NCBI GenBank assembly: GCA_036971475.1 | Contig: JBAIZL010000002.1 | Coordinates: 350,574,082-350,638,081 of the forward strand | DNA length: 64,000 nt | DNA from: Prosapia bicincta | Lineage: Eukaryota; Arthropoda; Insecta; Hemiptera; Cercopidae | Direction: 5' to 3' | Shown: piece by piece, positions 17,431-62,220 of the stretch | Layout of the letters: each line of letters starts with the position of its first letter | Position numbering within the stretch: position 1 is the first letter of the stretch | The notes under the pieces: generated by a model | What the model was told of the DNA's origin: nothing | Seen by the model: the letters and a program-made list of their open reading frames with translations, nothing else | Database searches by the model: none | Translations under genes and position numbers: made by a program

Positions 17431-19265
17431 ATAAATTTAAAATATTTCAAACACAAGAATACTTTTAATGAATATATTTATTCAAAGCTCTTCGCCAATA
17501 AAAAAGTATCAGCATCTTCAGGAAAAATAATTATCTAATAAAATACTTTTACAAAATTAAATCATATGTACTACAAAGAATCATATGTTTATAATTATTG
17601 CACTTATGTAAATTTTTCTATAACATCAATGACTTTATAAATAGTTTGGTGCCTTGATCTCACTTGAATTTGTTCATCAATTAATTTGTCTTTAACTTTA
17701 TGCTTATAAATTTCCAATGTTTCAAATATATTCATTTTTAATCCTTTATTTAATTCTTTTATTAATTTCATATTTTCTATTTCCGGAAACTCATGTCCAT
17801 TATTAATACAATGCGTAGCTAAATTGGATTTGTATATGTTTGGTTTGATATAAGCGTTTAAATGTTCTTTGTATCTTTCTTTTAATTTCTTTTTTGTTTG
17901 TCCTACATATAATTTATTACAAGTTTGACATTTTATATTATATACTCCATTTCTATCGTGCATATTATTTTGATTTTTGTTATTGTTTATTAAATTTGTA
18001 ATTTTATTATCGGTTTTATATATAATTTGTAAATTTGTTTCTTTAAATAATCATGTAATTTTATTTATTTCGTTACCAGTGAATGTAAAAGTTGTCCAAA
18101 TATTTTCTCTCTTATTAGGTACAAAATTATTTTCGAGTTTCTGTTTTCTTATTATATTATTATTTAATTTATCTATAGTTTTTCTTTTATATCCATTTTC
18201 TAAGCCAATTTGATATATTATATTTTTCTCCTTTATTTGATCATTTAAACTCATTGGTATTTTGTGCATTCTATGTAGTAAATTATAAAGCGCTGCCATT
18301 TTTTGGTTGTATGGATGGTTTGATTAATTGGGTATTATTTGATTTGTCTGCGTTGGTTTTCTATATATATTATATTCAAATGATTCTTTATTTCTAGTAA
18401 TTGTAATATCTAAATAATTTATTTTATTTTTTATTTCAAATTCATGAGTAAATTTTATATTTTCGTGTATATTATTTATACATTTTAATATTTTGTCAAT
18501 GTTTGAACCATTATTATTTGATATGTATAATCCATCATCTACATATCTAAACCAGTGTCCATTTTGATCATATGTTTTAATAATCTTATCTATATCAATG
18601 TCTATATTTTGTAAAAATATTTCCGATAATATGCTGGACATTGGAGAGCCCATTGTTAATCCATCCTTTTGTTTATAAATTTTATTATTATATAAAAAAT
18701 AATTTTGATTTAATATGATTTTTAATGTATTTATTATTTCTTGTGTTAATGTGTTATCTTTTTCAAATGTGTCTATATTATTTTTTATTATTTCAAGCGT
18801 TTTCATTATAGGTATGTTATTATACATGTTAGTAACATCAAATGATATTAATTTTGTATTATTATCAATTTTAATATCTTTTAATTTTTCAATAAGTTCA
18901 ATCGAGTTTTTTATATTATGAGTATTATTTAATTTTACCTTATCTTTAAGTAATAAAGCCAAATATTTTGAAATTTTATAGAAGGAGCTGTTGTAAAATT
19001 AACTAATGGCCTAATTGGTTTATCTTCTTTGTGCAATTTAATTAGTCCATTTAATCTTGGAATTTTAGGATTCTCATTTAAGTAATTATTAGTATATTTT
19101 TGATTAAATAATTTAGATGATGTTTTTATTATATTTTTTATTTCATTTTGATATTTGTCTGTGGGATCTTTATTTATTTCTGTATATTGGTTTTTAGATA
19201 TATAATTTTCAGTTTTATTTATATGTTCTTGTTTATCAATAATAACTACAGCATTACCTTTATCA
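17430..19265 (-). mobile_element. Penelope-like element, 5'-truncated
   Basis: A minus-strand PLE that retains its 3' non-coding end, the GIY-YIG endonuclease and most of the reverse transcriptase. Its 5' side stops abruptly at about 19265, where the second copy of the satellite-Tigger repeat starts. 5' truncation is the usual result of incomplete target-primed reverse transcription. It lies between two (TA)n runs and two near-identical flanking segments, so insertion and segmental duplication are linked here. It is much less decayed than the PLE pieces at 1.2-2.3 kb and 27.5-28.1 kb. Confidence 0.85.
17604..19265 (-). pseudogene. PLE reverse transcriptase / GIY-YIG endonuclease, frameshifted and 5'-truncated
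   Basis: Reading from 19265 downward, the first piece (about 19265-18963) has DKGNAVVIIDKQ and then PRLNGLIKLHKEDKPIRPLV, the PLE versions of early RT motifs. After a frameshift, 18962-18324 carries the RT palm: ISFDVTNMYNNIP (motif A aspartate), DGLTMGSPMSSILSEIF (motif B) and FRYVDDGLYI (the YVDD catalytic pair), then a thumb stretch ending in NIYRKPT. A short piece at 18299-18051 links on, and 17963-17604 is the endonuclease, with GVYNIKCQTCNKLYVGQT and ERYKEH. RT copies the element RNA at a nick made by the endonuclease. Frame changes between pieces and the missing N terminus make it inactive, but the catalytic motifs are intact. Confidence 0.85.
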
Positions 19266-46466: not shown

Positions 46467-48831
46467 CAGTACAGTCTCGCTAATCCGGTCTCCGATGATC
46501 CGGACGTCCGGCTAATCCGGACGGCCCAAAATTTTTGTTTAGTTATAGTATTTTACAGTGCACAATCAGTCTGCCGTCCACAAAAATATTTACTTTTATA
46601 CTACTATATGTTATTTTTCAAAGGGGTTTTCCTACTCTAATAGACAAATAATATGTTTATTCATTAAAATATGAATTTACCCTATTATTTGTTTCTTTTG
46701 CCTGTTAAAGTAGGAAAAACTTCTTTGAAAAAATATATTCACATTAGATCTCCCAACACTACAACGCACGTGATATCAAGAGATATCTTGCGATAAACGA
46801 AAGATAAAGGACCGCTGGCTAAACGGATAGACAGTCTATCCGTCTGGCGTCAGGTCAGTTCGGTTGTCGGACGGATGCCACCGTTACTGCTTCTCGCAAG
46901 ATATCTGCTTAGTTGTCATTTAATTCTAGTGCAATATTGATCTGTGTTTTATATTTACGTCTCGTTCAGTGTTCAGTGAAAATGGCGACTAAACGTAAGT
47001 CAGTGACAGTGACATTGGAACAAAAACTCCAATCTTTGTTTCGTATTGATGGAGGTGAATCGCATACTAAAATTGCAAAAGAGTTAGGCGTGGGAAAACA
47101 AACTGTTTCCGATCGGAAAAAAGTAACAGGAAATTGAAGATTTTTGTGCAAAAATTGTTAGTAAAGACATTTTAGGCGGCAGAAGCAAAAAAAAAAAAAA
47201 CTAAACCCTAGATGATGCTTTGTATGTATGGTTTTGCCAACAACGGGACAGGGTGTTCCATTATCGGGTGTAAATTTGCAAAGATCGCGCTGAAACTGAA
47301 TGAAAAGTTAAAAGGAGACCCTAATTTTAATGCCAGTGTGGATTGGCTATCACGGCGGAAGGAACGACACGGCATCCGTCAACTCGGAATAAGTGGTGAA
47401 ATTTTGTCAGGTGACAGTGATGCCAGTGAAAATTTCAAAGACAAATTTGGCAAGTTTCTCAGAGATGAAAACTTACAACCTTGTCACGTGTTCAACGCTG
47501 ACGAAACCGGATTAAATTATAAATTGTTCTTAAAAACAAATTTAGCTTCCAAATTAGATTCAGTAGCAAAAGGCCATAAAGTTAAGAAAGAACGTATGAC
47601 TTTGTTGCCCTGCAGTAATGCTCCTGGCGATCTAAAATTTCCACTTTTGATGATAGGGAAATCCGCAAAGCCGAGGGTTTTTAAAAATGTAAATTTAAGT
47701 GTTCTACCGGCCCAATACAAGTTCCAAAAATCAGCGTGGATGAACAGTCAAATTTTTAAGGACTGGTTTTTTGAAAACTTTGTTCCAACAACAGACAAGT
47801 TTTTAAAAGAGAAAAAACTCACTTGAAAAGCGGTTTTACTAATTGATAATGCCCCATGCCACCCAAATGAAGAACAATTGTGTCATGGTGACATTTTTGT
47901 TAAATTTCTTTCTCCTAACGTCACGGCTCTCATTCAGCCGACGGACCAGGGTGTGATAGAGGCGATAAAACTGCCATATAGAAAAAAGTTAATTTTATCG
48001 CTTTTGTAACAACAAGAAGCAGATCCAGCTACACAATTTATTGAAATTCTTAAAAGAGTTACTATAAAGGATGTCATTTATATGGCTGCAGACCTACTAA
48101 TGACGGCGCCGAATTTGTTCAGATTTTTCAACAATTGGAGGGTTGTGCCGTGTTGAAAGACACTGATATTTCCGAGTGGATTATCAGTGATAGTGACATT
48201 GGTCATCAAGTGCTCAACGAGGACGAAATCGTCGCTGTGTGCATTGCAAACGCAGAAAATGACAGCTCGGAAGAGGAAGACTACACAGACGAACCGGTCA
48301 GCCCAACTCATGATGGGGCGGCTGCAATGCTGGAGGGGTTGATAGCCTACTTTGAGAAACAGAGTGATACGTCAACTGCGGAGCTACTGACCTTGAAACG
48401 CCTACGAGATCTTACTGTGAAACGACGCCATTTATCGTTAAAACAAAAGAACTTACAGACTTTTTTCACTAAGTTTTTTAAAGTTTATTTTTGTTTCAGT
48501 TTCATTTTTGTTTGAGTTTCTTTGTGCGTTTATACAGTATAGTGTAAATAACTTTATGTGAATACATTTATTCAACGAGAAAGATGCTTTGATATTTATT
48601 CATGTCATACCTTTTCTGTTACAATTACAGTATTTTTTGCTAAATAAGCTATGAAATACTGTACTGTATAGCTATAATTAGGCCTCAATTTCACTAAAAC
48701 TACAATTTCAATGTTTCCCCGACTAAAACACATATTGTATGCATTTGTCTGGCTTTTTCCGTCTAATCCGGACTTTCGTTGATCCGGACAGGGTCCGGTC
48801 CCATCAAGTCCGGATTAGTGAGACTGTACTG
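46467..48831 (+). mobile_element. Tigger (pogo superfamily) transposon inserted in satellite E, inactive
   Basis: Ends are perfect in form: the left end is cagtacagtctcgctaatcc, and the right end read in reverse is cagtacagtctcactaatcc. They are flanked by TA duplications at 46465-46466 and 48832-48833. Removing the element and one TA joins gacgta to ctatctacag, exactly the sequence of neighbouring uninterrupted monomers (for example near 38147), so the insertion site is proven within the window. Length is 2.37 kb. The inner side of both ends has repeated atccgga motifs. The element holds a broken transposase. Confidence 0.95.
46982..48515 (+). pseudogene. Tigger transposase, disrupted
   Basis: The start ATG at 46982 opens an N-terminal CENP-B-type helix-turn-helix (HTKIAKELGVGKQTVSDRKK) that ends at a stop at 47137 after a frameshift. 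The next piece (47150-47826) has the Tc5-type DNA-binding domain and the first catalytic Asp in FNADETGL. An in-frame TGA at 47824-47826 precedes the second Asp (LLIDNAPCH, ~47838-47865). The third is in [13 protein letters not shown] (~47935-47970). A TAA at about 48007 and another frameshift lead into the C-terminal tail at 48135-48515, with an acidic stretch (SSEEEDYTDE) and the usual final QTFFTKFF. All three catalytic aspartates survive in the decayed sequence. Confidence 0.9.
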
Positions 48832-48833
48832 TA

Positions 48834-49316
48834 CTATCTACAGGGGACATGAAGCAGCTATAGCACTTGCACCACAAGTAATGATTATTACAATGTATAA
48901 CTATGACGCTGAAGCTAAAGACACAGAAAATGGAAGTTCACGTAGAAAATTGCGTTGTCTAACTAGGACCTACTCTCTACCGGGGTTGAAGCCTTTATAA
49001 TATTTGCACCACAATTAATAAATAATACATTTTATAACAATGACGCTGAAGCTAAAGACAGAGAAAATGTTACTTCACGTAGGAAATGTCGTTGTTAGAT
49101 TTAGACCAACTCTCTTCTGGGGACATTAAGCACTTATAGCCTTTCGAACACAAGTAATGATTAATAAAAATTATAACAATTACACAGTAGGTAAAGATAG
49201 AAAAAATGTTAGTTCACGTGGGAAATGGCGTTTTCTGACTTAGAGCTACTCTCTACCGGGGACATGAAGCAGCTATTACATTTGCAACACAAGTAATGAT
49301 TATTACAATGTATAAC
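48834..49316. repeat. Satellite E, short block between Tigger and Polinton
   Basis: About 3.5 monomers continuing the array after the Tigger insertion, including one of the shortened attaataaataatac variants near 49015. Confidence 0.95.
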
Positions 49317-49322
49317 TATAAC
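49317..49322. repeat. 6 bp target site duplication, left
   Basis: The sequence is tataac, matching 61820-61825. The flanks joined through a single tataac give tgtataactataacgctgt, the exact sequence of other satellite E monomers (for example near 42500). Confidence 0.95.
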
Positions 49323-49872
49323 AGTAGTAAGGGAGTTGCTGGGCCTAGCGGGGCCAATTTCCAGCTGGGCTTAGCGGGACCAATCTCCAAAATTTAGCTC
49401 GAAGAGCATTTCAGGGGTACCTATCCGTCTTATCGGCGTTTCTATTGGTCGCCCCCTTATTTCTCCCACCGTTTCATTTACTTATCCGCTTTCCGATTGG
49501 CCGCCCCTCTCGTTTTCTCATATGTTTTCCTTCCTTGGCGGGTTGTGCGGGGGGCCCCTCGGCCCCCCCGTCCGAAGAGCATTTCAGGGGTACCCAGTTC
49601 TCTTTTCCCATTGGTCCCCCTTCTCGTTTTCCTTCCTTGGCGGGATGTGCGGGGAGCTCCAGCTCTCCCCCCTCTCAGTTCTCTGGTTCAGAAAAGTCTA
49701 TCGCGTTGTGTAATACGTAAATTGCGTCATCACCTTGGGTAAACAACCGCCATCGATACGCGGAACTCATTCAAAATAATTGTGCTGGGTGTGATTGTAA
49801 ATAAAATATTTATTGCTTTGTGTAATAGATAAATTGCATCAGGACCTTGGACTTTAGTATTGTTTGTGCAAC
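49323..49872 (+). repeat. Polinton left terminal inverted repeat
   Basis: Nearly identical to the reverse of 61351-61819 for the first ~415 bp. After that this copy carries ~100 extra bases, with a second version of the gtgtaatagataaattgc block, before the shared agtattgtttgtgcaac ending. Much more GC-rich than the surrounding DNA. Internally it holds two direct repeats, each with gaagagcatttcaggggtacc followed by ccttccttggcggg, about 165 bp apart. Proline- and arginine-rich open frames over it, on both strands, are compositional artefacts. Confidence 0.95.
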
Positions 49873-49881
49873 GCCGCTAAT

Positions 49882-50175
49882 ATGTTATCTGCAGCAGAAC
49901 GTGTGTTTGCATTATCGTCACATCCAAACCTTTGTGCATGCGGAAAAACCATGGCTCATTATTACATAAGCAAGGCCAACGCCTATGTAGAGAATTATGG
50001 TTTGGAAGACTATGATATGGCTAGTAAGCACTATAAAAGCTGTGCATGGTCCTGTCAGTCGTTTACAGGAGACGGCCCAGACATTTGTGTTTGTGCGTTA
50101 TTTGAGGAAGCTTTGAGAAAAGCTCTAGACGTTTTGGAAGGCAGCTTTGAAAGCGTGTTACAAGAATCATTCTGA
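49882..50175 (+). CDS. Unknown small Cys-rich protein of the Polinton
   Basis: An intact 97-residue frame from the ATG at 49882; codons in the same frame upstream lack an ATG. It begins just inside the left TIR, where a terminal promoter would place a first gene. It has seven cysteines, including CACGK near the start, CAWSC in the middle and CVC before the end, which could bind metal or form disulfides. The C-terminal third looks helical (FEEALRKALDVLEGSFESVL). I recognise no family. There is no signal peptide or membrane segment. Its frame is undamaged, unlike most genes of this element. Whether it is expressed is unknown. Confidence 0.55.
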   Translation: MLSAAERVFALSSHPNLCACGKTMAHYYISKANAYVENYGLEDYDMASKHYKSCAWSCQSFTGDGPDICVCALFEEALRKALDVLEGSFESVLQESF

Positions 50176-50279
50176 AAATCTTGAACATATATATGACAGA
50201 TTGCCAGACAAAGATATTTTAGAATATTTGCCTTGTGATAAACATAAAATACGAGTTATAAAAAAAAAAATATTGCACA

Positions 50280-50530
50280 TTTTGTAATCCTATAATGTGT
50301 GAAAAATTCTAACACATTGTATGTATTTTATTAAGTTTAAAAATGAAATTTTTAATAAATATAACAAAATTGTGTAAATATTTATAATAGATTGTATTGC
50401 GTGAAAAATTCTAACAGATTGTCTGGTAAACACATTGTGTGTATTTTATTAAGTTTAAGTAAAGAAATTTTTAATAAATATATCAAATTTGTGTAAATAT
50501 TTATAATATTGTGTACAGAATTTTTTACAC
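50280..50530. repeat. Two-copy tandem repeat upstream of the BIR gene
   Basis: The phrases gtgaaaaattctaaca, tgtattttattaagttta and gtgtaaatatttataat occur twice in the same order, about 120 bp apart, ending just before the BIR start codon. It may hold promoter elements, by position only. Confidence 0.7.
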
Positions 50531-50536
50531 TTAAAA

Positions 50537-50968
50537 ATGACGTCTTCTTTTATTGATACTGATGAAAATGCGTGTATTGATGGTTTTGTAAAAAAACATT
50601 ACTGCGGTTTGGAGGGTTTTATTGAAAATAGTAATAACAACGAAAAAATATGTTGTAAAGATGTAAATGACTGTATGAGAAAACAAATGTACAAAATTTT
50701 AAATCTAAGTTGTATTGGCCAACATTATGTAGAGTGTAAGTTGTCCATTTTTGATATAGAGAAGAAAATGCGAGATACGTTCGCAAATTGGCCAAAACCA
50801 TATCCAAATATTGACGACATAGTACAATCTGCTTTTTATTATAATTCAATTGGAGATCATGCTGTTTGTATTTGTTGTAATATACAAATTCATAGTTGGC
50901 AGGAAAAAGACGTTCCAGCTATTGAACATCGTATTTATTCACCAAAATGTAAATTAGTTAATAAGTAA
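50537..50968 (+). CDS. BIR-domain (IAP-like) protein
   Basis: An intact 143-residue frame with an ATG in good context. Residues 75-139 form a baculoviral IAP repeat: the R79 and TFANWP start, the AFYY turn, and the zinc ligands C111, C114, H131 and C138 with exact spacing C-x2-C-x16-H-x6-C. W121 and the aspartate of the EKDVP turn are in place. BIR domains bind caspases or IAP antagonists, and viral members block apoptosis of the infected cell. There is one BIR and no RING finger, so ubiquitin ligase activity is not expected. Residues 1-74 are Cys-rich and unlike anything I know, perhaps a second degenerate finger. The domain call is firm; the anti-apoptotic role is inferred from the family. 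It lies in the left part of the Polinton, on the plus strand. Confidence 0.88.
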   Translation: MTSSFIDTDENACIDGFVKKHYCGLEGFIENSNNNEKICCKDVNDCMRKQMYKILNLSCIGQHYVECKLSIFDIEKKMRDTFANWPKPYPNIDDIVQSAFYYNSIGDHAVCICCNIQIHSWQEKDVPAIEHRIYSPKCKLVNK

Positions 50969-51033
50969 ACAGGAAAAGATGTAAATTAGTTTGTATAAAA
51001 TAAATGTTTCAATTTATGTGTTAAATAATTTAT

Positions 51034-51408
51034 TTATTCACCTTTACATTGTCTATAATAATTTCTGTTGCTGATTTTGGACGTAAACACACATGTCACA
51101 GCAACTCCTATTGTCCTAACATTGAAAACAGGTAATTGTCCATCTGATTTTGGACGATGACCCCACCTTAATAATTTTCTGTATTGTGGATAGTTCATTA
51201 GCATGAAATCATCACTCAATAAACTCTCTTTGGAATACACTCTTAAAAATTCGTATACTTCATTATCGGGTATATTTATAGTCATAATATCTTTTAATAA
51301 TGAATAATTGTATCCATCAGTATTGCGTTTGATTAACACCTTCTTATAAGATTCGTGCAGACACTTAATAATCGTAGTGGGTAATTCAAGGCTATCCAAA
51401 TAATACAC
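51034..51408 (-). CDS. Unknown frame, possibly partial
   Basis: A 124-codon minus-strand frame facing the BIR gene. It has no ATG near its 5' end; the first in-frame ATG is about 42 codons in. It is therefore a short protein, a spliced exon or the end of a broken gene. The sequence has a normal protein composition (LKDIMTINIPDNEVYEFLRV, for example) and ends with a basic, Cys-containing tail (NRNYYRQCKGE). No domain is recognised. Its 3' end lies ~65 bp from the end of the convergent BIR gene. Confidence 0.4.
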   Translation of the reverse strand: MYYLDSLELPTTIIKCLHESYKKVLIKRNTDGYNYSLLKDIMTINIPDNEVYEFLRVYSKESLLSDDFMLMNYPQYRKLLRWGHRPKSDGQLPVFNVRTIGVAVTCVFTSKISNRNYYRQCKGE

Positions 51409-51452
51409 AATTGAAATAACGATTTATTCATTTTAGGCTAGTCAGAACAACA

Positions 51453-51830
51453 ATGACAACGCCAGCTGTAACAGTGAGGAGGAGCATTGCGAGAGAGATT
51501 CATAAACAGGCTCGTAGGAATTTTCCCACTCGTCATGTTGAGGTGAAAGGATTGTATGATCTTTACCAAGCCGACCTTGTGGAAATGCTGTCATTCGCTA
51601 GAGCAAATAAAGGTTATAAATTGTTTTAGTAAATATGCGTTGACGGTGCTGAAGAAATGGAAAAGTCATTACAACCGATTTTAGATACATATTCTATGCG
51701 TCACTTACAGTATTGTACTCCTGAGGATGTTGGTAATGTAAACCAACGAAGGGCTTTGAGTTTATTATTCAATAAATTGAATATTCCTGTATTTGTGTGT
51801 ATTACGAATATTATGTGTGACCAGAGGTGC
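51453..51830 (+). pseudogene. Polinton-type (retrovirus-like) integrase, fragment
   Basis: The first 58 codons from ATG 51453 read as the region before and at the first catalytic aspartate: IHKQARRNFPTRHVEVKG, then LYQADLVEM, where D41 is the first residue of the DDE triad. A TAG follows at 51627-51629. The frame shifts to CFSKYALTVLKKW, then again to MEKSLQPILDTYSMRHLQY and PEDVGN, the position of the second aspartate, followed by ALSLLFNKLNIPVFVC. Homology fades near 51830, so the third catalytic residue, the C terminus and the zinc-binding N terminus are missing. The integrase inserts the element with a 6 bp stagger. It is the most decayed gene of this Polinton. Confidence 0.8.
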
Positions 51831-52123
51831 CGATTTCATGACATGTGTGGACTTTACAGGGATTCCGGGACAAATTAACCAGGTCTCATGGTTTGACATA
51901 TTTCATGATATAATTTTTAAAATAAATGACTGTACTTTTTGAATGGCATAGCATATGGCGGTATAAAAAATAAATTCAACCGGCATGAGTAGTCAAAACA
52001 AAGGCTTATTAAATAAATTTTAAAAAATTCTGTAAATGGCTGTATAAAAACAAGCAATATAACAAAAACGTTTTTGTAAGTAAATTTCTACTGAGGTCAA
52101 CAAAGACAAAAATTATTTTAGTT
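51831..52123. other. Gap between integrase remnant and LINE insertion
   Basis: No coding frame. It begins where integrase homology stops, near accagaggtgccgatttcat, so a deletion or a small unidentified insertion replaced the rest of that gene. Confidence 0.5.
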
Positions 52124-52135
52124 ACTTTTTATTAT
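52124..52135. repeat. LINE target site duplication, left
   Basis: The sequence is actttttattat, identical to 52707-52718, flanking the LINE fragment. Confidence 0.9.
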
Positions 52136-52661
52136 GGCAAATGTATTGGCTACTCGGTCGAAATTCACGGGTATCAATATACAACAAGCTATTGGTATAT
52201 AACCAAATCCTCAAACCGGTTTGGACGTATTGTATACAGCTTTGGGGCTGTGCCAGCAAATGTCACATACAAGGGATACAACGCTTCCAGAACAAAGTAC
52301 TAAGAAACATCGCCAACGCTCCTTGGTATGTGCGTAACAGTGACTTGCATTGCGATTTTGGTGTACCCATGGTCGAGGAAGTCATAAAACAGAACGCCAT
52401 CAAACACGTAAATCGGCTCACTCAACACGAAAATCCTGAGGCACTGAGACTTCTCGACAACAACCACCTGACAAGACGACTCAAAAGGACAAAACCATTT
52501 GAACTCGTTGAACGACAAGAGTGACAACAATACTCTTCCTCACGCCGGTTGGCTTCCAACATCAAACAAGATACAAAAGAAATCAATGGATTCTTTGTAA
52601 TATAAGCTAAAATATAATTATTAAATGTAAATTAATGGTTGGTCAGAAATGACCAGTTTTA

Positions 52662-52706
<45 letters not shown>
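52136..52706 (+). mobile_element. Jockey-type LINE, 5'-truncated, with poly(A) tail
   Basis: It contains the extreme C terminus of a non-LTR reverse transcriptase (52141-52524), a ~140 bp 3' UTR and a ~43 bp poly(A) tract, bounded by a 12 bp duplication. The signature phrases LLVYNQILKPVWTYCIQLWG, IQRFQNKVLRN and NAPWYVRN are typical of Jockey-clade elements of arthropods. The coding piece is open to its natural stop and the tail is long, so insertion was recent relative to the Polinton it interrupts. Confidence 0.92.
52141..52524 (+). pseudogene. Reverse transcriptase C-terminal fragment (Jockey clade)
   Basis: 127 codons after the catalytic palm: thumb and tail region only, with no YxDD motif and no endonuclease. 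The frame is intact to TGA at 52522-52524. It cannot act in retrotransposition. It ends 140 bp before the poly(A) tail, as usual for the second reading frame of the clade. Confidence 0.9.
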
Positions 52707-52709
<3 letters not shown>

Positions 52710-52718
52710 TTTTATTAT
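52707..52718. repeat. LINE target site duplication, right
   Basis: The sequence is actttttattat, the partner of 52124-52135; its first base is shared with the end of the poly(A) tract. Confidence 0.9.
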
Positions 52719-53414
52719 ATAATTACAATTATAAATATGTACAAAACATTTGGCTGAAGTACCTTTGATGAGGGCTTCTAAGGCAGACCTGTAGTTGCCG
52801 AATCGGTGTAATTTTTTTATTATAAATAAATAAAACAGTTTTAATCACAATGCACTTTTTTATTGTAAAGGAATTGTCATCAGAGGATATGACTACAAGA
52901 ATGAGACTTGTGGTTGGAGGTTTTATTTATTTTATAGTTTTAAAAAACTTAAATTTTATTGAAATAAAAATATATGAATGTAAAAAGATATTTGTAGAGC
53001 AAATACTATGTAGATGTCTTTGTTACCATTGTAGCTGTATATAATGGTAAAAAGTATATAAGTAGTAATCATTAATATAAACAAGTTTTAAAGTCAATTC
53101 TTACTTGAATCAACAAAGAAAAAATTTATTAAATGATTACAATTAATACAGTTAATGTAACATAACCTTTAAAACAGCCACCACATAACTTTTAACATAA
53201 AATCAGCTGTTTTGTGAAATCATACGTTATAACTTATTTGGGACGAAATTACCATATTGCATACATTGCCCCGTTTGTTAAAAGTTCCTCCCATATAAAA
53301 CTAAAATTAATTAAATAAATTTAGTTAATGAAGAAAAATCTATATTAATTGTATTTCTTTTTTTAACTGAGAAAATAAAAAGTTGTACACAAAAATAGTG
53401 TATTTTATTTATAA
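52719..53414. other. Polinton internal region without a recognised gene
   Basis: Only a 64-codon plus-strand frame (52850-53044), rich in hydrophobic and Cys residues, is present, and I cannot support it as a gene. Capsid or packaging genes often lie in the middle of Polintons, but none is visible here. Confidence 0.5.
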
Positions 53415-53615
53415 GACCCACTTTCTGTTACCAAAATTTATAGGATATAGACAATGGATAATTCATAAAATGCTATTTTGTTTTATCTTTATTAATTTAC
53501 AAACATTAACATAACATAATTTTGTGTTTCCAAAAATTTGTAGGATATAGGATTAAATAACTTTTCACAAAATGCTATTGCTGTTTTTTCTTTATTAATC
53601 TACAAACATTAACAC
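53415..53615. repeat. Two-copy 100 bp tandem repeat downstream of the polymerase
   Basis: The phrases taggatatag, aaaatgctatt and acaaacattaaca occur twice, 100 bp apart, ending at the 3' end of the polymerase gene. The role is unknown. Confidence 0.75.
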
Positions 53616-53622
53616 AGGAGAA

Positions 53623-56600
53623 TTATTTATCTTTTAACATAACATGGCCATATGCCAACGTATGTACACCATCTTTACATATATATCTTTTATCGTCATC
53701 GGGGCTGAGAGCCAATTTATCAACAGTGACGGTTTGAACTATATGTTTTTTCGATGTAAATGAAATGATTTCTCGCCTGCTTTTAATAAATGATTCTAAA
53801 CACTTTCTGTAGTCGTCAAAATATACAGTCTTAAGCGCTGTTTTAGTGATGCCTTTAGCTTTTTTTTCAATTTTATTTACCGTTCTAAAACTGTATAATT
53901 TAGCTCTCAGTCCGATGAATTCAGACAAACCAACGCCTTTGCATTCGTCTTTGAAACAGCCCAATTTCTTAGCATTATCTCTGAAATAACCTTCATGATT
54001 TTGAGGAAGATCGGACATATCAAAATGATTTCTCAAATCATCATTCACCTTAATATCTTTATAGAAATTATCAGTAAAGATTTTATAAAATAAACCATCT
54101 GTGTCTAAATACAAAAGATTAATTTTTGATTTATAGAAATCTTTCAAAACATCGTAGTGTATTTCGTACATACGTGTTTTACTTATTTCTAAAACCGTAA
54201 AACCAATATATATTGGCTTGTTAAAATAAATCGATTCTTTTTCCCATTCAATAGCGCACAAAGATTCATCGTAGATTATGTGATTCAAAAAGGTGGGTTT
54301 CCTAATCAACGCATTCAATTTTCTCTCCGAGCTAATTAATTTTAAATTTTTTCTCTTCCTAATATTTTCAATTGTTTTGCCAAACATTGCGTTTATGACA
54401 AATTTATAGAAGTCTTTTTCAAAATCGTTTTTAGCGTTTTGTCTTTTTTTCGTATTAAAGAGAACATACGATGACAACCATGCGCTTTGTTTAAACTGCA
54501 TAATCCTATGAATCTTTGTAATTACCAGTCCGTGACGCAACGCTTGTTTCAAATTAACATAATGACAAATGTAATTCTTTTTTACTTCTAAAGTTGTCAA
54601 TAATTTAGATTGTTTACTGCCTGGCAGACATTTAGTTTCCGGTAGAAATGGCAATTGATTATGATCATCATGCAAGTAGCTAGGATATGCAATATCCACT
54701 TCTAAAATATATCCTATGGGAGAGTCATCCGCTATAGCCAAAACATCAAACGTATTTATTTCTTTAGACCTTTTCCATTCAAAAGAGGCGTACGGCATGG
54801 GTTTTGTCATACTCCATCCGTACAAATTTGTTGCATCAATATACATTATATATGACAGAGGTTCGGCTATTTCAAAATCGTCTCCCAATAGGGGGTTATT
54901 GGCTTTGCCATGCCTAGTAATACAAGAAGTTATCCCGCCTCTAATACCTTGTTCTATAAATAAAAATTTATCATAATCTGTAAATAAATCTAATTGAATT
55001 TGAGTGAATTTGAGCATTGCGTCAAACGTTAAACCTGGTAATGTAAAATAATAGGCACAATCTAAATCATAATTTGTTAAAGATAAATCTCTAAAATTTT
55101 CAAACACATCACACAACAACAATACGTCAGTTAAAAGATACAAATCGCTATATTCGCCCAAAGTTTTAAACTTAAAATGTTGCCACACATTTTGTGCGTG
55201 TTTGTATTCATCATCAGAGATATGGCTGGCTTCTAGCATATTATAAAAATCATTTTTTGTCGGCAATTCGGTTTCTTGCAATTTTTCCCAAGAATCTGTA
55301 TAATTGTACGGATATACACCTTTTCTAGTCACAAAAGGTATATCGTGTACAGAAAAATGTTTTTTCGTATATTTAAATTTTTCATTTGGCAAATTATTAA
55401 CTAATTTACTCAGATTTGTGCTCACAAATTTATATGTATCAATAAATCGTAATGCAATACCATTTTTAGTATTTTTCGAAAATGTAATATACTTCTCGTT
55501 TGTGTGTGGTATCACACGAATGTCATTTGTATCGCAACCCAATTGTCGGACAATGAAATGACTGTCATAACTAGAGCTGCCGTGTATAAATATAGGCAAG
55601 AAATTTTGTTGTTGCCTCAACAAATTGCACTTACTACATAAAACAGATCTGAATTTACCAGTAATATGACAATGATCTTTAACAGGACTATTAATTAGAG
55701 TAAACTGATGGTTACAAGATTCACATTTATTGGCTGTTTCAAATCTATACTTTTCATCTTCACTTAATTTTCTCATTGATTTATTAGTTTTACATATTTC
55801 ACCAATATTATTAGCAAGTTCAATAAGATACGACATAAATTGTTCTGCCGCTCCTAAACCTCTATACACATACGGTTTTTTAGGTAATTTGTCTAAAATT
55901 TCGTTCGGCAAAACCAAATCAACATCAATAACTAAATATACTGCAAATGACATTGGTTCGTGGATGTCGTTTAATTTGACACACTTGCTAATTTTTTTGT
56001 TTACCGGTTTCAACAGACACTCAAAATCTGCATAAACAACAAAAGGCACTCTGTATTTATAGTGATAATGTTTAAATTTCAAGATACTGTCATCATGCGA
56101 AGGCATTTTTACCTTTACAGGTTTTGTTTTTTCACACACACTCAAATGATTGTTCAAATTTACATCTTTATTTTTTCCACTATAATGTACTAAACATCTT
56201 TTACAAAAAACCAATTTTTTTGTATGTTTATTGATTTGACTATTCATTAATCTTGAAAAATGTTTAATATAACAATAATGACTATTTCCCGACTGATTAG
56301 TTAACAATAATAAATCATAATGATTTTTCTTAATACTCTTACTGATTCTTAACGGATAAATATTGTTATTACCATCTTAACTTATTGCATAAACGTTTAC
56401 ACTGGTATTTACATTATGTTTTTCAAATTTTGAAATCTGACGCAAAGGCGTTGGAAAATCAATACCCTTAAGATTAAATATATTAGACAATTTAAAATAA
56501 CGATTATTTACTATGTTCAAATGTTTGATATCTGTTTTTATATACGGGACTAAAAGTGACCATAAAAAGCATTTATTATCATAAAAATTTTGAGGGTTTA

Positions 56601-57096
56601 TAATGGCCTTTTTATTTTTTATTGAATTAGGTAAAGGCAGATATGAGCTGGGAGCTAGCTGATTAAATTTACTAAATCGAAGTATAATTCGGGTAACCCT
56701 ATCCAACGACCAACCGCTTCCTTTATCTATATATTCTTGCTCCTCGACACATATCTTACGAAATAAATTGTTTAAAATATTGTATAAATTGGAAGTCACA
56801 AATACAGGCACATTTTTTGTTTTGAAATACCTTAATTGTCTTTCTTGCGTCAACAGTTTTATGTAAGAAACTTCAACCACTATATTGAATTTCAACATAT
56901 TATAAGTCCTAATCATAATGTTAATTAAACGGATCATTTTCGCTCTAGTGAATATTAACAATAGACAGATATCGCGTATGCTAGAAGTGTTATTTAGTAG
57001 GAATGTTTTTAAGTTTCCTCGGAACGCATGATCAGTTTCTACAAAATCGTCGTCATCATCAACATCCATTGGTGCAACGTTCTCTTCATGGTCCAT
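53623..57096 (-). pseudogene. Protein-primed family B DNA polymerase (PolB) with one in-frame stop
   Basis: One reading frame of 1157 codons from ATG 57096, a normal Polinton PolB length, broken only by TAA at 56377-56379 (codon 240). The part before the stop shows family marks: GSGWSLDRV, AIINPQNFYDNKCFLW and PTPLRQISKFEKHN. Position n below counts from codon 264 (56307) as 1. A C2HC-like finger is at 35-58. Exonuclease motifs are YADFEC (D94), SSSYDSHF (D248) and YSDLYLLTDV (D394). A Cys/His insert with DHCHITGKFR is at 195-228. Polymerase motifs are YIDATNLYG (D491), FVINAMFGK (~637-644) and YLDTDGLF (D735, D737), where Gly replaces the usual Ser after DTD. It would replicate the element from a terminal protein primer. 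A lone nonsense change in so long a frame suggests recent loss, or readthrough; I favour loss. Confidence 0.93.
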
Positions 57097-57117
57097 AATT
57101 ATGATAATAAACGCCTT

Positions 57118-58128
57118 TTATGACAAACTGTAATAGAAACAAATCCTAATTAAAAAAAAATTTCTTTTTTTATCTAACTTCACAATTTCGTTATTTACAT
57201 GTTTAATTTTACTGATTCTTTCGGCAGCAGTACATATAGTCTCATCAATCTTCTTATACAATTCGTCGTCTGACGACTTGACCAGAAAATAAGCTTTCTT
57301 ATATACCTTCGTCCAATACTGAGACTCGCTTACGCACTCTTTTAAATCGCGACAATCAGTTACTTCAACTTTTATAAGGAAACTGCCTTCCTCGCCTGGG
57401 GAAATTAATTTCCGTCTGCTACCATTTTTTTGATATTGCACATATTGTTTAATAACTGTCGGTGCTCTTTTAATTTTTTTAAAAATATTTTCCAATTTTT
57501 CTTCGCACTCAGATTCTGAAGCGGCCTCCGAATCTGAACCGATATCGTCAATATTTGACGAAGGCATATTTTTTTTCAAAATTTTCTTGTTAGATTTTCG
57601 TTTTCTACTTTCACTATCATTATTACTAAAGTTTAGGTTTGGTAGTAAACCGGAATTATTTCCTTTAACCTCTTCCAAAGCAGGTCGTATACAGGCAAGA
57701 GCCCTCTGCACAATTTGTATAGAAAACTTAACAGGTATTTGAGCTTGGCCAACATTTCCACCCAATATTTCAATAATCTCTTCAATTGTTAATTCTTTGT
57801 CTAAATATTTAGGTATTTTATACTGCGAATTTACGGTAGAGTGGAAATGTTCATTAAGATTTATATAAATTTGCTTTAAATGTAAATATAATGAGGTGAA
57901 CCCATTCTCTACAATCTTATTTTTTTGTATGTTAATAAAAATAGCAGCTACTCCTATTTCCCATTTACTAACGGACGTTAATCCTGCGAGGAATAAAGTT
58001 TCAATTAATGCTAAAAATGTTACTACATTTTTGTCATGTTGACCACCATCTGCAAGTACTTGCTCCTCGTGGGCCACTATTTCCAAATCGACATTGCCTG
58101 CTTGCGACGACGGCGGTTGTGACGACAT
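57118..58128 (-). CDS. Unknown acidic/basic protein upstream of PolB
   Basis: An intact 336-residue frame from ATG 58128 (first residues MSSQPPSSQ). The frame is open to 58179 with another ATG, but that start would overlap the dUTPase and add a hydrophobic stretch encoded by a T-rich run. Residues ~1-30 are polar, ~35-165 look helical, ~180-205 hold a basic run (RKRKSNKKILKK) that could be a nuclear signal, and ~205-230 are strongly acidic (SDSEAASESECEE). The rest is mixed charge. It lies 21 bp upstream of PolB and 22 bp downstream of the dUTPase stop, so the three are probably co-transcribed. I recognise no family. A terminal protein, DNA-binding or virion core role is possible but unsupported. 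Confidence 0.65.
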   Translation of the reverse strand: MSSQPPSSQAGNVDLEIVAHEEQVLADGGQHDKNVVTFLALIETLFLAGLTSVSKWEIGVAAIFINIQKNKIVENGFTSLYLHLKQIYINLNEHFHSTVNSQYKIPKYLDKELTIEEIIEILGGNVGQAQIPVKFSIQIVQRALACIRPALEEVKGNNSGLLPNLNFSNNDSESRKRKSNKKILKKNMPSSNIDDIGSDSEAASESECEEKLENIFKKIKRAPTVIKQYVQYQKNGSRRKLISPGEEGSFLIKVEVTDCRDLKECVSESQYWTKVYKKAYFLVKSSDDELYKKIDETICTAAERISKIKHVNNEIVKLDKKRNFFLIRICFYYSLS

Positions 58129-58150
58129 AACTATTAGGAAAAAAAATATA

Positions 58151-58561
58151 TTAATTATCTCCCCTTTCCGTAGTTTCATCTAAATTAATTATTTCAATTA
58201 ATTTGGGATAAGCACACATCTCACAAATTAGTTGGGCCACTTTATCACCTCGTTTTATAAAAACATCTTTATTTGAATGATTAAATAACAGAACTTTAAG
58301 ACCACCCTTAAAATCTTTGTCAATTACCCCTGCACCCACATCTAAAAAATATGTCAATGCGAGCCCAGAACGAGGCGCTATGCGACCATAACATTGGGGG
58401 GGGGGGGGTATTTTAATGGCTACATCTGTGTTTACTAGACACTTTCCAAATTTAGGCACTACGTAATCATAAGCACTTCTGAGGTCAAAACCGGCTGCAT
58501 TTACAGTTGCCTTTTCAGGAGCATAAGCATTTTCGGTCAATTTTGTGTACCCTAATTCCAT
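58151..58561 (-). pseudogene. dut: dUTPase, motif V missing
   Basis: A 136-residue trimeric-type dUTP pyrophosphatase, which hydrolyses dUTP to dUMP and keeps uracil out of DNA. Motif I AAGFDLRSAY is at 22-31, motif II GRIAPRSGLA at 59-68 with the catalytic-loop serine, motif III GVIDKDFKGGLKV at 78-90 with the D81 general base (Phe at the usual nucleoside-stacking Tyr), and motif IV RGDKVAQLI at 104-112. The protein stops right after TERG, so the Gly-rich motif V that closes over the phosphates is lost. A run of 13 C in the coding strand (58396-58408 as G on the plus strand) turns the normal turn before CYGRIAPRSG into IPPPPQ and is a likely slippage site. The gene may be functionally dead even though its frame is open. 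Such genes are common in DNA viruses; the symbol is the general one for the family. Confidence 0.9.
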
Positions 58562-59275
58562 ACTGAAATCATATGAGACAAATTATAATTAATATTTAAA
58601 AGCAAATGTAGGAAAAACATTTTTTGACAACTTTTTAGAGAACAAATATTCAAATACTATTTATTAAGACTTTATTTTTTTTTGACAATTATAACAATGC
58701 CAACGAATTACAAAAAGCTCTGATTAAATGACACTTTATTTTAGAGTCAAATTTCTATACCCTAATGAAATAATATTTACCTACAAAATGATATGAAACA
58801 AATTACAATTATTATTTAAAAGCAAATGTAGGAAAAACATTTTTTTGACAACAATGTTAACGAAATGACAATTATAGCTCTGATTAAATGAGACTTTATT
58901 TTACAGACAAATTTCTAAACCCTAATGAAATATTTAGAAAACACTACGAATTACAAAAAGCTCTGATTAAATGAGACTTTATTTTAGAGTCAAATTTCTA
59001 TACCCTACTGAAATAATATTTACCTACAAAATGATATGAAACAAATTACAATTATTATTTAAAAGCAAATGTAGGAAAAACATTTTTTTGACAACAATGT
59101 TAACGAAATGACAATTATAGCTCTGATTAAATGAGACTTTATTTTACAGACAAATTTCTAAACCCTAATGAAATATTTAGAAAACACTACGAATTACAAA
59201 AAGCTCTGATTAAATGAGACTTTATTTTAGAGTCAAATTTCTATACCCTAATAAAATAATATTTACCTGCAATAT
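58562..59275. repeat. Tandem 243 bp repeats upstream of the dUTPase
   Basis: Two full copies and one diverged partial copy. Markers are gatatgaaacaaattacaat (58789 and 59032, 243 bp apart), aaaagcaaatgtaggaaaaac, and ctctgattaaatgagacttt, which appears twice per unit. The block lies directly before the start of the dUTPase, unknown-protein and PolB series, all on the minus strand. By position it could carry promoters or a replication signal; no such motif was identified. Confidence 0.85.
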
Positions 59276-59638
59276 CTTCTTGCAACTAACAGACACTAAG
59301 AACTGGAAATTAATTCTGATGGCTCTTACTGACTCTCAACGTATTTAAACTCTTACGTCAACACCTAATTATGCAGGCTCATTCAATTATTCTAAGATCT
59401 GTACTTACATTCACGAGTTCCGCATGCTGATATTTATAGTTTAATGACAGTTTAAAATGCTCAACTGCTTGGTCTTTTCCTATTACATCATCAATTATTA
59501 AAAACACTTGCATTAATGCTGTTTATCCTTGACGCTATATTGTAGAAGGCAGTTATTTGAAATAATGTACACAAGGAAAATTACAAAACATATTTATTCT
59601 CACAGAGTACAATTACAAAACTTCTTTACTCCTTCAGC
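59276..59638. other. Spacer between repeats and metalloproteinase gene
   Basis: No convincing frame. A 116-codon plus-strand frame at 59529-59879 overlaps the antisense of the metalloproteinase and is rejected. Confidence 0.6.
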
Positions 59639-61191
59639 TTACAACAATTGCAAAACCAATTTTTTAAATTTATTTAAAACAGAGACATTATTTGCGACGG
59701 TGTTTAAACATGTTATTCCAAAGACGTCTAAATTATTTTCAATCGTTTGTTGTATATTTTTCGTAAATTCGTTATATTGCACAATAATATTGTTTTTAAA
59801 AAAATATAACAATCCGTTTGTATATCTAAATACAGACTCCATATGGGTCGGTAAAAATGGAAAGTTGTTTGAAATGTAGCCGTATTTCTTGACATGAAAT
59901 ACCTTTTCATCTAGTTCCAAAAAGTAAATGTCATTGAAAAAGATATAAGTTATACCCCTATACGAATTCACAACCCCGTGTATTTTCATCTGGCTTCCAC
60001 CACCCAAAAAGGAAATATGTTTCGGGTAATCTTTAACTAATTTTAGAGATGGATATTCTATCATAAATATCTGCTCTTCTGCGAAGAATACAATTTCACC
60101 AGATGGTCTCTGATAAATAAAATCTATTTTTGTAAAATTCGGTGATAAAAACGGCAACCATTCTACAATTTTTTGAACTTTGTCAACATATTTATTACCC
60201 AACATTACTGACCAAATCCATTTTTCGTGAAATATATACAATTCTTTATTAACAACTAAAAACGTTTTTAGATTTTTAAAATTGCACAAATTCGGTGTAA
60301 CAATGTCTTCCACTTTCTTTGTAGGCAAGGTTTTCGGTTTCAATGTAGTTGATGTTATCTTTTTCTTTCCGTATAACGTCTGTATGGCGAAAATGTCGTC
60401 TTCTCCAAGATCAGCCAAATCGCTTTCATAATATGGATACATAATTGAATCTAAACGATTGGAATGTGATATTCCCAATGCATGTCCTATTTCGTGTATT
60501 AAAACATTTAATAGGAAATGTTTACCTGAACCGCATTTTTAATATTGTTTTCTAAACACCAATCTGCATCGCTATTTAAATGGATTTCTCGAGTTGATTG
60601 GTCTATATGGGGTAAAAACGCGTGTCCCAGTAAATTGGCGTCAAGTGGATATGAACAATAATTTGGAGATTTTTCAAACGTGTGCCTGGTCCGTTTAAAG
60701 GAAAGTAATATATCCGGTTGGACTCTATCTTTCACAAAAACCAAATCGGTATGTTTTTCCCAAGCGTTAAAACCCTGTCTTGTTAACTCATTTATTTGGG
60801 ACGTTGCTAAAACAAAATGATAGCCCAAAACTTTTTTACGCCATTTCACATGATGGAGTTTAAAAGGCAGTATAGAGTCTTTAAGACCACATCGCGGTTT
60901 TTTCATAAAATCTAAAGTAGCATTGTCAATTTTTCCATTAGTATTTATATTGTATGTCTCTTGAAAGAGATGTAAAGCATCAGTCACAAATGTTGAATTG
61001 ATGTTCGACAAACCAATTGATGACGCGTTCAAATATCCAAATTTATGTAAATAACTTACAACAAAATTATAATTCTTATCCGTACAGCTTTTTCCTTTCC
61101 CTACACACACATTAGCATCAAACAATTCTTCTCTAACAGGATACGTATTTACAAACGCAATAATCACAAAATATATCATTAGAAAAAACAT
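59639..61191 (-). pseudogene. Matrix metalloproteinase, secreted, with hemopexin-like tail; one frameshift
   Basis: The start is the ATG at 61191, giving a hydrophobic signal peptide (MFFLMIYFVIIAFV); codons upstream lack an ATG. Residues ~39-96 are the peptidoglycan-binding-like prodomain, followed by the cysteine switch KKPRCGLKD (C101), where the free Cys holds the catalytic zinc until activation. The catalytic domain follows (LLGHAFLPHID, REIHLN). At about 60515-60545 the frame shifts next to an A-rich run and the first frame ends after NISY. The other frame continues with the zinc site HEIGHALGISH (60496-60464) and the Met-turn SIMYPYY. Then comes a linker and ~190 residues with hemopexin-like blades (LYIFHEKWIWSV, ITYIFFNDIYFLELDEK, LLYFFKNN). 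MMPs cut extracellular matrix, and some insect DNA viruses carry one. This is the gene nearest the right TIR. The family call is very firm; the break makes this copy inactive unless it is a sequencing error. Confidence 0.93.
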
Positions 61192-61350
61192 TCTTGTGTT
61201 GAACTCGACGCGTCGTTCAACGAACTGACAAAATATAACGAAATAATTCGTGATAACCAAATTTCAGTCGTTCAACGAACTGACAAAAAATAACAAAATT
61301 TCTCTCTTGACTCTGAAAGCATTCATGACTCATTTATATGTATATTATTT

Positions 61351-61819
61351 GTTGCACAAACAATACTACTGACCAAGGTGATGACGCAATTTATCTGTTG
61401 CACAACGCGATAGACTTTTCTGAATCGGAGAACTGAGAAGGGGAGAGCTGGAGCTCGCTCTACAGAGAATTGGGGGGCCAAGGGGCTCCCCGCACAACCC
61501 GCCAAGGAAGGAAAACGAGAAGGGGGACAAATGGGAAAAGAGAACTGGGTACCCCTGAAATGCTCTTCGGACGGGGGGGCCGAGGGGCTCCCCGCACAAC
61601 CCGCCAAGGAAGGAAAACATATGAGAAAACGAGAGGGGCGGCCAAACGGAAAGCGGATAAGTAAATGAAACGGTGGGAGAAATAAGGGGGCGACCAATAG
61701 AAACGCCGATAAGACGGATAGGTACCCCTGAAATGCTCTTCGAGCTAAATTTTGGAGATTGGTCCCGCTAAGCCCAGCTGGAAATTGGCCCCGCTAGGCC
61801 CAGCAACTCCCTTACTACT
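61351..61819 (-). repeat. Polinton right terminal inverted repeat
   Basis: The partner of the left repeat, 469 bp, with only scattered differences over the shared part. It contains ~25 bases (around aattctctgtagagcg in reverse) that the left copy lacks. Confidence 0.95.
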
Positions 61820-61825
61820 TATAAC
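61820..61825. repeat. 6 bp target site duplication, right
   Basis: The sequence is tataac, the partner of 49317-49322; it continues directly into satellite E sequence (gctgtagctaaa). Confidence 0.95.
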
Positions 61826-62215
61826 GCTGTAGCTAAATACAGAGAAAATGTTAGTTCACGTAGGAAATCTTGTTGTCTGACTTAGGTCTACTCCCTTCCG
61901 GGGACATGAAGCAGCTATAGCATTTCCAACACAAGTAATGATTATTACAATTTATAACAATGACACAGTAGGTGAAGATAGACAAAATGTTAGTTCACGT
62001 GGGAAATGGCGTTGTCTGACTTAGATCTACTCACTACCGGGGACATGAAGCAGCTATAACATTTGCAACACAAGTAATGTCTATTACAATTTTTAATAAT
62101 GAGGCTGTAGCTAAAGACAGAGAAAATGTTAGTTCACGTAGGAAATGGCGCTGTCTGATTTAGACCTATTTTCTACTGGTGACAAGTAACCGCTATAACA
62201 TATGCACCACCAGTT
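61826..62215. repeat. Satellite E, block right of the Polinton
   Basis: About three monomers continuing the array from the target duplication. The last monomer breaks off at gttatgat near 62220, where a different repeat starts. Confidence 0.95.
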
Positions 62216-62220
62216 ATGAT

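Follow-up and report, generated by a model that had tools for sequence, protein, structure and literature searches.

A Polinton of 12,497 bp (about 11.9 kb without a nested long interspersed nuclear element, LINE) occupies positions 49323–61819 of a 64,000-nucleotide stretch of the genome of the hemipteran Prosapia bicincta (assembly GCA_036971475.1, contig JBAIZL010000002.1, positions 350,574,082 to 350,638,081 of the forward strand), hereafter the window. On balance, this young and decaying copy appears to represent the polymerase half of a Polinton now split into two elements, which likely complement each other. A stronger formulation, confidence in which falls a little short of even, holds that the pair constitutes a bipartite integrated virus composed of a replication provirus of about 12 kb and an integrase and virion provirus of about 11–12 kb, each with tips of its own and each incomplete without the other. 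Two forms can be distinguished among the young copies. Form A, to which the window copy belongs, encodes a protein-primed DNA polymerase B (PolB), mostly together with the open reading frame (ORF) ORF353 and a dUTPase; a matrix metalloproteinase (MMP) gene is variably present, the integrase is cut at about residue 110 and the capsid gene is absent. Form B harbors a 325-aa integrase, a packaging ATPase, the capsid gene, a BIR protein and usually MMP, and is devoid of PolB. In a one-piece form, represented by most old copies and by a second family, the capsid gene adjoins PolB.

The division is documented by searches of the same 2.2-Gb genome, in which only the best candidates were scored, so that all counts are lower bounds; the scored lists for MMP, the capsid gene and PolB extend down to the second family. 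Fifty of 1086 PolB candidates were scored, and the 38 with at least 96% identity are regarded as young. Stop-free PolB frames of 1163–1164 aa (counted by eye) are retained in 25 of them. A capsid gene within 12 kb 3′ of PolB was found for none of the 38; next to second-family PolB it lies at a distance of 974–1360 bp in 7/7 cases. A dUTPase is located within 7 kb of 34/38 young PolB genes, and MMP lies beside 20/38. The capsid-gene search yielded 103 scored matches of 1548 candidates, 64 of which (at least 98% identity) are young. Forty-seven of these reside less than 3 kb from MMP, which leaves no space for PolB, and none is found at the one-piece distance. Since an MMP position by itself does not distinguish form A from a copy that has lost its capsid gene, the assignment also draws on small probes and on the scored PolB matches. 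Fifteen of the 17 young capsid copies without MMP were probed, and all 15 continue into form-B filler and none into PolB, bringing the coverage for PolB to 62 of 64. Among 14 capsid copies at 85–97% identity, six are spaced 6.1–10.5 kb from MMP and three at the short distance, and in the five without MMP a PolB end adjoins the capsid gene (5/5). The second-family capsid matches (n = 25) include eight at 5.7–7.4 kb from MMP, none at the short distance and 17 without a scored MMP. A dUTPase occurs within 12 kb of the capsid gene in 1/64 young, 11/14 older and 18/25 second-family copies, all 150 scored dUTPase places being used for the proximity counts. BIR and MMP flank the deletion, and the dUTPase goes with PolB.

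Recurrent junctions accompany the two forms, one being largely common to form-A relatives and another common to form-B copies. When the 20 top-ranked PolB relatives were probed past their 3′ end, the junction filler of the window was recovered in 17 and the integrase stump in 19; neither the capsid gene nor the LINE was detected in any of these 20 stretches. The LINE is likewise missing from L095, one of ten 10-kb stretches (L093–L102) that were examined gene by gene, and the junction stretch of the polymerase form has no match in the capsid-form or one-piece copies L093, L096, L098, L099, L101 and L102. A set of 18 probed stretches of 1000 bases, 16 of them readable, contained PolB or ORF353 in 11 cases, other element parts (ATPase, the '401' gene, integrase stump) in three and nothing in two. 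Both ends were probed in nine form-B copies, one of which had a partly readable end that showed no tip. All eight form-B copies readable at both ends carry the tip AGTAGTAAGGGG and equal 6-bp flanks (judged by eye), although three of the eight flanks read TATATA and hold little information. Their lengths, computed by hand from coordinates and tip positions, range from 10,976 to 12,034 bp. These tips and 6-bp duplications of their own show that the form-B copies examined were inserted as units.

The gene-by-gene comparison assigns the stretches to the same three arrangements. MMP, dUTPase, ORF353 and PolB follow each other in window order in L094, L095, L098 and L099, the latter two being older copies in which capsid-gene pieces, recognized by eye, still adjoin PolB. 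L093, L096 and L102 encode the 325-aa integrase, the packaging ATPase, ORFs including one with a PLA2 domain, a 405-aa double jelly-roll (DJR) capsid gene and then MMP; PolB, ORF353 and dUTPase are absent from all three, and the capsid gene is interrupted in L102. The second family, exemplified by L100 and L101, comprises BIR, PolB, a duplicated ORF353, dUTPase and MMP; the capsid gene lies at the one-piece distance in both copies, and its end is visible in L101. Identity of this family to the window amounts to 61–62% for MMP and 74–75% for PolB, and spans 61–75% when dUTPase is included. Pfam searches with capsid-form proteins returned the DJR capsid (2.2e-102), rve (7.3e-9), Pox_A32 for the ATPase (4.3e-7) and PLA2 (2.1e-13), and Pfam also matches the second-family BIR and dUTPase. 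A C-terminal chromodomain of the integrase in sister copies is a weak match (Chromo 1.2e-4; its 22.4 bits fall below the cut-off of 25.1), and no Pfam match to an Ulp1/adenain-like protease or a minor capsid protein was obtained in the form-B ORFs scanned. The PLA2-like domain is located in the form-B gene at L093:3369–3950 (+); such domains occur in some virion entry proteins. L097 is rearranged, with ATPase and '401' gene pieces joined to BIR and ORF129 fragments; its MMP has a 544-aa frame, and other MMP copies equal it in score and frame length.

The separate spread of two incomplete forms could be brought about in several ways. In the favored reading, a one-piece Polinton would have broken and its two halves would have gone on to spread separately, form A being the source of PolB and form B the source, acting in trans, of integrase and capsid, so that the two together would make up a single divided genome; a mutual dependence of the two forms is what we infer. 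Were both forms instead ordinary defective derivatives, akin to defective-interfering genomes or non-autonomous transposons and copied in trans by a one-piece virus of their family outside the assembly (an exogenous adintovirus, for example, or copies in other individuals), the pattern would be the same; an integrating helper should have left young copies too, but no young one-piece copy was seen among the 38 PolB and 62 of 64 capsid copies checked. This main rival is rather unlikely, though it has its attractions: derivatives with internal deletions commonly arise from DNA transposons and viruses, one-piece copies did exist, and the integrase stump of form A resembles plain decay. The losses, however, are complementary, and long open frames are kept in both halves, as the 25 stop-free PolB frames illustrate. 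A helper might also reside in the same genome, so that form B relies for its copying on the second family or on some other PolB family, and form A for its movement on the integrase of such an element. The one-piece second family (7/7 PolB genes with a capsid gene) is indeed present, and 197 PF03175 matches show that further PolB families exist; nevertheless, second-family PolB is just 74–75% and MMP 61–62% identical, and protein-primed copying is usually specific to an element's own ends, which makes this explanation improbable. The PF03175 matches, with several per gene, lie in many cases in long open frames (1273, 1308 and 1407 aa) and have near-equal scores; L075–L082 were rejected as relatives because they show no tblastn similarity to the window proteins, and they belong to other families.

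Several observations weigh against a divided and complementing Polinton. The inner parts of the terminal inverted repeats (TIRs) of form B differ from those of the window copy (30 bp at 83–90% in the copies probed), and only the TIR of L102 matches that of the window over 246 bp at 98.4%. No scored MMP lies beside 18/38 young PolB and 17/64 young capsid copies; with so many young copies lacking it, MMP is not needed for copying. Since the short spacing is already seen in 3/14 capsid copies at 85–97% identity, the split is not sharply dated. The window filler is missing from three of the 20 PolB relatives; rearranged exceptions include a young PolB (97% identity, one stop) separated by 1.2 kb from the 5′ side of a capsid gene, and a young capsid copy accompanied within 12 kb by a dUTPase; and the other PolB families represented by the 197 PF03175 matches are possible helpers. 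No virion, transcript or movement was seen.

The insertion itself is delimited to the base, as the first-pass annotation of the window had proposed: its 338-bp TIRs are 98.5% alike, and TATAAC is duplicated on both sides (Table 1). When the host flanks are joined, the register of the surrounding 139-bp satellite is restored, with 95 of 120 positions matching at lag 139 as compared with at most 41 of 120 at every other lag from 125 to 149; chance is no explanation for this match. The few TIR differences, the single PolB stop and the single MMP frame change point to a fairly young insertion in which decay has begun. From left to right, the window copy contains the cysteine-rich ORF, BIR (+), ORF129 (−), the integrase stump (+) and the junction with the LINE, followed on the minus strand by PolB, ORF353, dUTPase, the 243-bp tandem repeat and MMP. 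Capsid genes, the packaging ATPase and most of the integrase are missing. Elsewhere in the window, DDE_1 transposase remnants at 4671–6023 and 47212–48515 resemble the Tigger/pogo type by eye, and a reverse transcriptase (RVT_1) followed by a GIY-YIG-like stretch at 17604–18998 has, again by eye, the appearance of a Penelope-like element.

Table 1. Features of the Polinton insertion and its flanks (window coordinates)
Feature	Position	Strand	Remarks
Host 139-bp satellite, left	48832..49316		
Left target-site duplication	49317..49322		TATAAC, 6 bp; flank comparison
Left TIR	49323..49660	+	338 bp; tip AGTAGTAAGGG
Small cysteine-rich ORF	49858..50175	+	105 aa; parts in 3/10 capsid-form stretches probed
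Single-BIR protein, no RING	50507..50968	+	First ATG ~50537; Pfam BIR 5.7e-16
ORF129	51034..51423	-	129 aa; recurs in sister copies
Integrase remnant	51420..51878	+	~Residues 1–110 of 325, stops inside; aligned to sister copies
Junction stretch of polymerase form	51880..53341		Includes LINE
Nested LINE, 5′-truncated	52136..~52707	+	Poly(A)-terminated 3′ end; by eye Jockey-like
PolB, main part	53623..56376	-	917 aa open
PolB, N-terminal part	56377..57117	-	Same frame, behind one stop
ORF353	57118..58179	-	PolB-associated; 31–52% (partial matches) in second family
dUTPase	58151..58582	-	143 aa; domain 2e-36 (Pfam)
243-bp tandem repeats	58703..59272		dUTPase–MMP interval
MMP, C-terminal piece	59639..60538	-	Other frame; HExxHxxGxxH active site, hemopexin-like propeller
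MMP, N-terminal piece	60508..61263	-	Signal-like N terminus (by eye), propeptide, PRCG cysteine switch, catalytic domain (first half)
Right TIR	61482..61819	-	338 bp; 98.5% identical to left (BLAST)
Right target-site duplication	61820..61825		TATAAC, 6 bp; flank comparison
Host 139-bp satellite, right	61829..62219		

The core enzymes of the element are recognizable despite its decay. PolB is present as claimed, is of the protein-primed type and has one in-frame stop in addition; 5260 homologues were found at E ≤ 1e-5 among 7981 candidates scored. No match of the window PolB piece to Pfam PF03175 was obtained, and what we take to be the palm and exonuclease motifs were recognized by eye. PolB groups next to an unnamed sequence of 61% identity, and the enclosing group includes sequences of the leafhoppers Macrosteles and Homalodisca, which is suggestive of a hemipteran host. 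The putative integrase remnant proved to be the start of the 325-aa rve integrase of the sister copies; the full enzyme is encoded only there, so that the window copy taken by itself lacks the integrase that defines such an element. A single-sequence fold of ORF353 (mean pLDDT 45.5) was uninformative and was not used.

The MMP was predicted to be a secreted enzyme with a cysteine switch and a hemopexin-like tail, and the switch and the tail were found and the N terminus looks signal-like by eye, but the frame is broken in the window copy by a frame change near 60510–60538. Peptidase_M10 of Pfam matches two stretches in different frames (3.6e-9 and 3.7e-14), and the active site reads HEIGHALGISHS. 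By sequence, the hemopexin assignment of the tail is weak (0.0074, under the cut-off); its predicted fold is a propeller that matches MMP-13 (3.5e-15) and isolated hemopexin domains. In the same genome the MMP piece recurs at no fewer than 131 places, 73 of them at 97% identity or more, 38 at 83–96% and 20 at 61–62%, and stop-free frames of at least 530 aa are present in 46 of the 73. Homologues at E ≤ 1e-5 number 20 among 668 candidates: a 'collagenase [Ladona dragonfly adintovirus]', one protein of Lycorma delicatula, three of Lamprigera yunnana (a firefly) and 15 unnamed sequences. A 21-row tree puts the window piece into a group of 19 (99/97) that excludes two outlying MMPs, and resolves its position no further.

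The single-BIR assignment was borne out by the Pfam match and the absence of a RING. A full-length 153-aa match of 95–97% identity occurs in nine of ten capsid-form copies probed. Peptide binding by this protein is uncertain, since a hand alignment suggests that it has other residues in place of the Gly and Asp typical of the type II BIR peptide groove. Over 54 residues, the second-family BIR shares just 26% identity with that of the window; it also occupies a different position in the element, and BIR may therefore have been gained twice, separately in the two families. The dUTPase claim is likewise upheld by its domain match. The enzyme is of the eukaryotic type, with a shrimp enzyme and CG4584-PA (a fly gene name) as best PDB matches; the last of the five trimeric-dUTPase motifs was not seen in the 143-aa window copy, and the closest copies mostly have open frames of 149–151 aa. 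The 150 or more scored dUTPase places of the genome fall into several families. A third group, 55–56% identical and with frames of 158–171 aa, was noted by eye at several places within a few kb of the 1308-aa PolB family. This proximity makes it probable that more than one Polinton lineage in this genome carries a dUTPase.

Whether MMP, BIR and dUTPase could be later nested insertions in one ordinary Polinton copy, or absent from its relatives, had been named by the first-pass annotation as the outcome that would overturn its view. No such outcome was found: the recurrence of MMP at 131 or more places, of dUTPase at 150 or more and of BIR in 9/10 sisters, the order MMP, dUTPase, ORF353, PolB common to two families and the lack of repeats bounding the cargo genes led to the rejection of this extremely improbable explanation, the LINE being the sole nested insert seen. 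Relatives with both cargo and capsid gene, for which the same annotation had called, exist in the second family, which unites MMP, dUTPase, BIR, PolB and the capsid gene in L100 and L101, and its proposal of a virus-like ancestor gains support because sister copies encode a DJR capsid protein, a packaging ATPase and an integrase. Between the two families, dN/dS amounts to 0.175 (MMP) and 0.123 (dUTPase); the parts of PolB and of the capsid gene that were compared give 0.091 and 0.032, respectively (Nei–Gojobori, one copy pair per gene, with dS above 1.2 and near saturation). Given the values for MMP and dUTPase, these two genes appear to have been kept for use under purifying selection. The MMP might loosen the extracellular matrix or basement membrane and thereby promote spread from cell to cell or through tissue, the BIR protein might delay cell death, and the dUTPase might keep uracil out of element DNA; these roles follow those proposed for these protein families in insect viruses such as HzNV-2 (PMC3280521).

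The element is best seen as an adintovirus-like Polinton. With Polintons/Mavericks it shares TIRs, the 6-bp duplication, PolB and integrase and, in sister copies, the packaging ATPase and DJR capsid; the MMP, BIR and dUTPase cargo and the split young copies distinguish it from them. Its closest named likeness is to the Ladona dragonfly adintovirus (Eupolintoviridae), to which PolB is 45–46% identical and the collagenase/MMP 42% over 96% of the queried piece. In sister copies, the rve integrase (its chromodomain match being weak) and the DJR capsid protein are also adintovirus-like, whereas the split of the young copies between polymerase and capsid forms is not. Adintoviruses are defined by a PolB with an N-terminal OTU-like domain (PMC11071296). 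Further criteria for the group are an integrase ending in a chromodomain and a hexon with BLASTp similarity to established adintovirus hexons. Because GenBank lists a 'collagenase' of the Ladona dragonfly adintovirus, MMP cargo in adintoviruses predates the present finding. The first-pass annotation knew of no described Polinton with this combination; MMP has a precedent, and the full combination was not found in a literature search of partial coverage. Among Polinton gene models of Lycorma delicatula, P0033 joins a BIR-RING IAP (inhibitor of apoptosis) to PolB, probably a fusion of two neighboring Polinton genes merged by annotation, and a 'collagenase 3-like' relative is 38% identical; the Lycorma IAP, however, has a RING that the window BIR lacks, and the two share 20% identity over 69 residues. 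Helicoverpa zea nudivirus 2 (PMC3280521) encodes short IAPs and a dUTPase along with an MMP that has a hemopexin domain, but is a 231-kb circular virus of another kind.

Searches of IMG/VR viral contigs found no relative of ORF353, of a single PolB piece or of the first MMP piece, and one distant locus for dUTPase. A PolB alignment matched 33 loci, two of which (L001 and L002) cover most of PolB at 34–38% identity; none of MMP, BIR and dUTPase matches these two at an E below ~1. The other 31, judged from the table only, match short stretches. With the MMP alignment, 40 matches were obtained, all short and matrixin-like and again assessed just from the table, and a homologue search for BIR returned none.

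What is new, to our knowledge, is the complementary organization in two forms; the kind of element is known and the cargo partly so. We know of no described case of a divided Polinton genome. In a literature search of partial coverage, neither a divided Polinton nor a Polinton with MMP, BIR and dUTPase was found to have been announced. The nearest known divided genome in the Polinton neighborhood is that of the bidnaviruses, exemplified by Bombyx mori bidensovirus (Bidnaviridae), which combines a Polinton-derived PolB with a genome whose two segments are packed separately (PMC4061559). Bidnaviruses differ in having single-stranded DNA and a parvovirus-like capsid, and are no case of a Polinton that was divided while keeping a DJR capsid and an integrase of its own. 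For many eukaryotic DNA viruses, Polintons have been positioned close to the root. If the favored reading is true, a divided Polinton genome would be at hand whose one-piece ancestor is still present in the same genome, and the origin of multipartite DNA viruses would become testable by dating copies. As retained genes of an animal Polinton, MMP and dUTPase would further support spread through animal tissue besides vertical inheritance.

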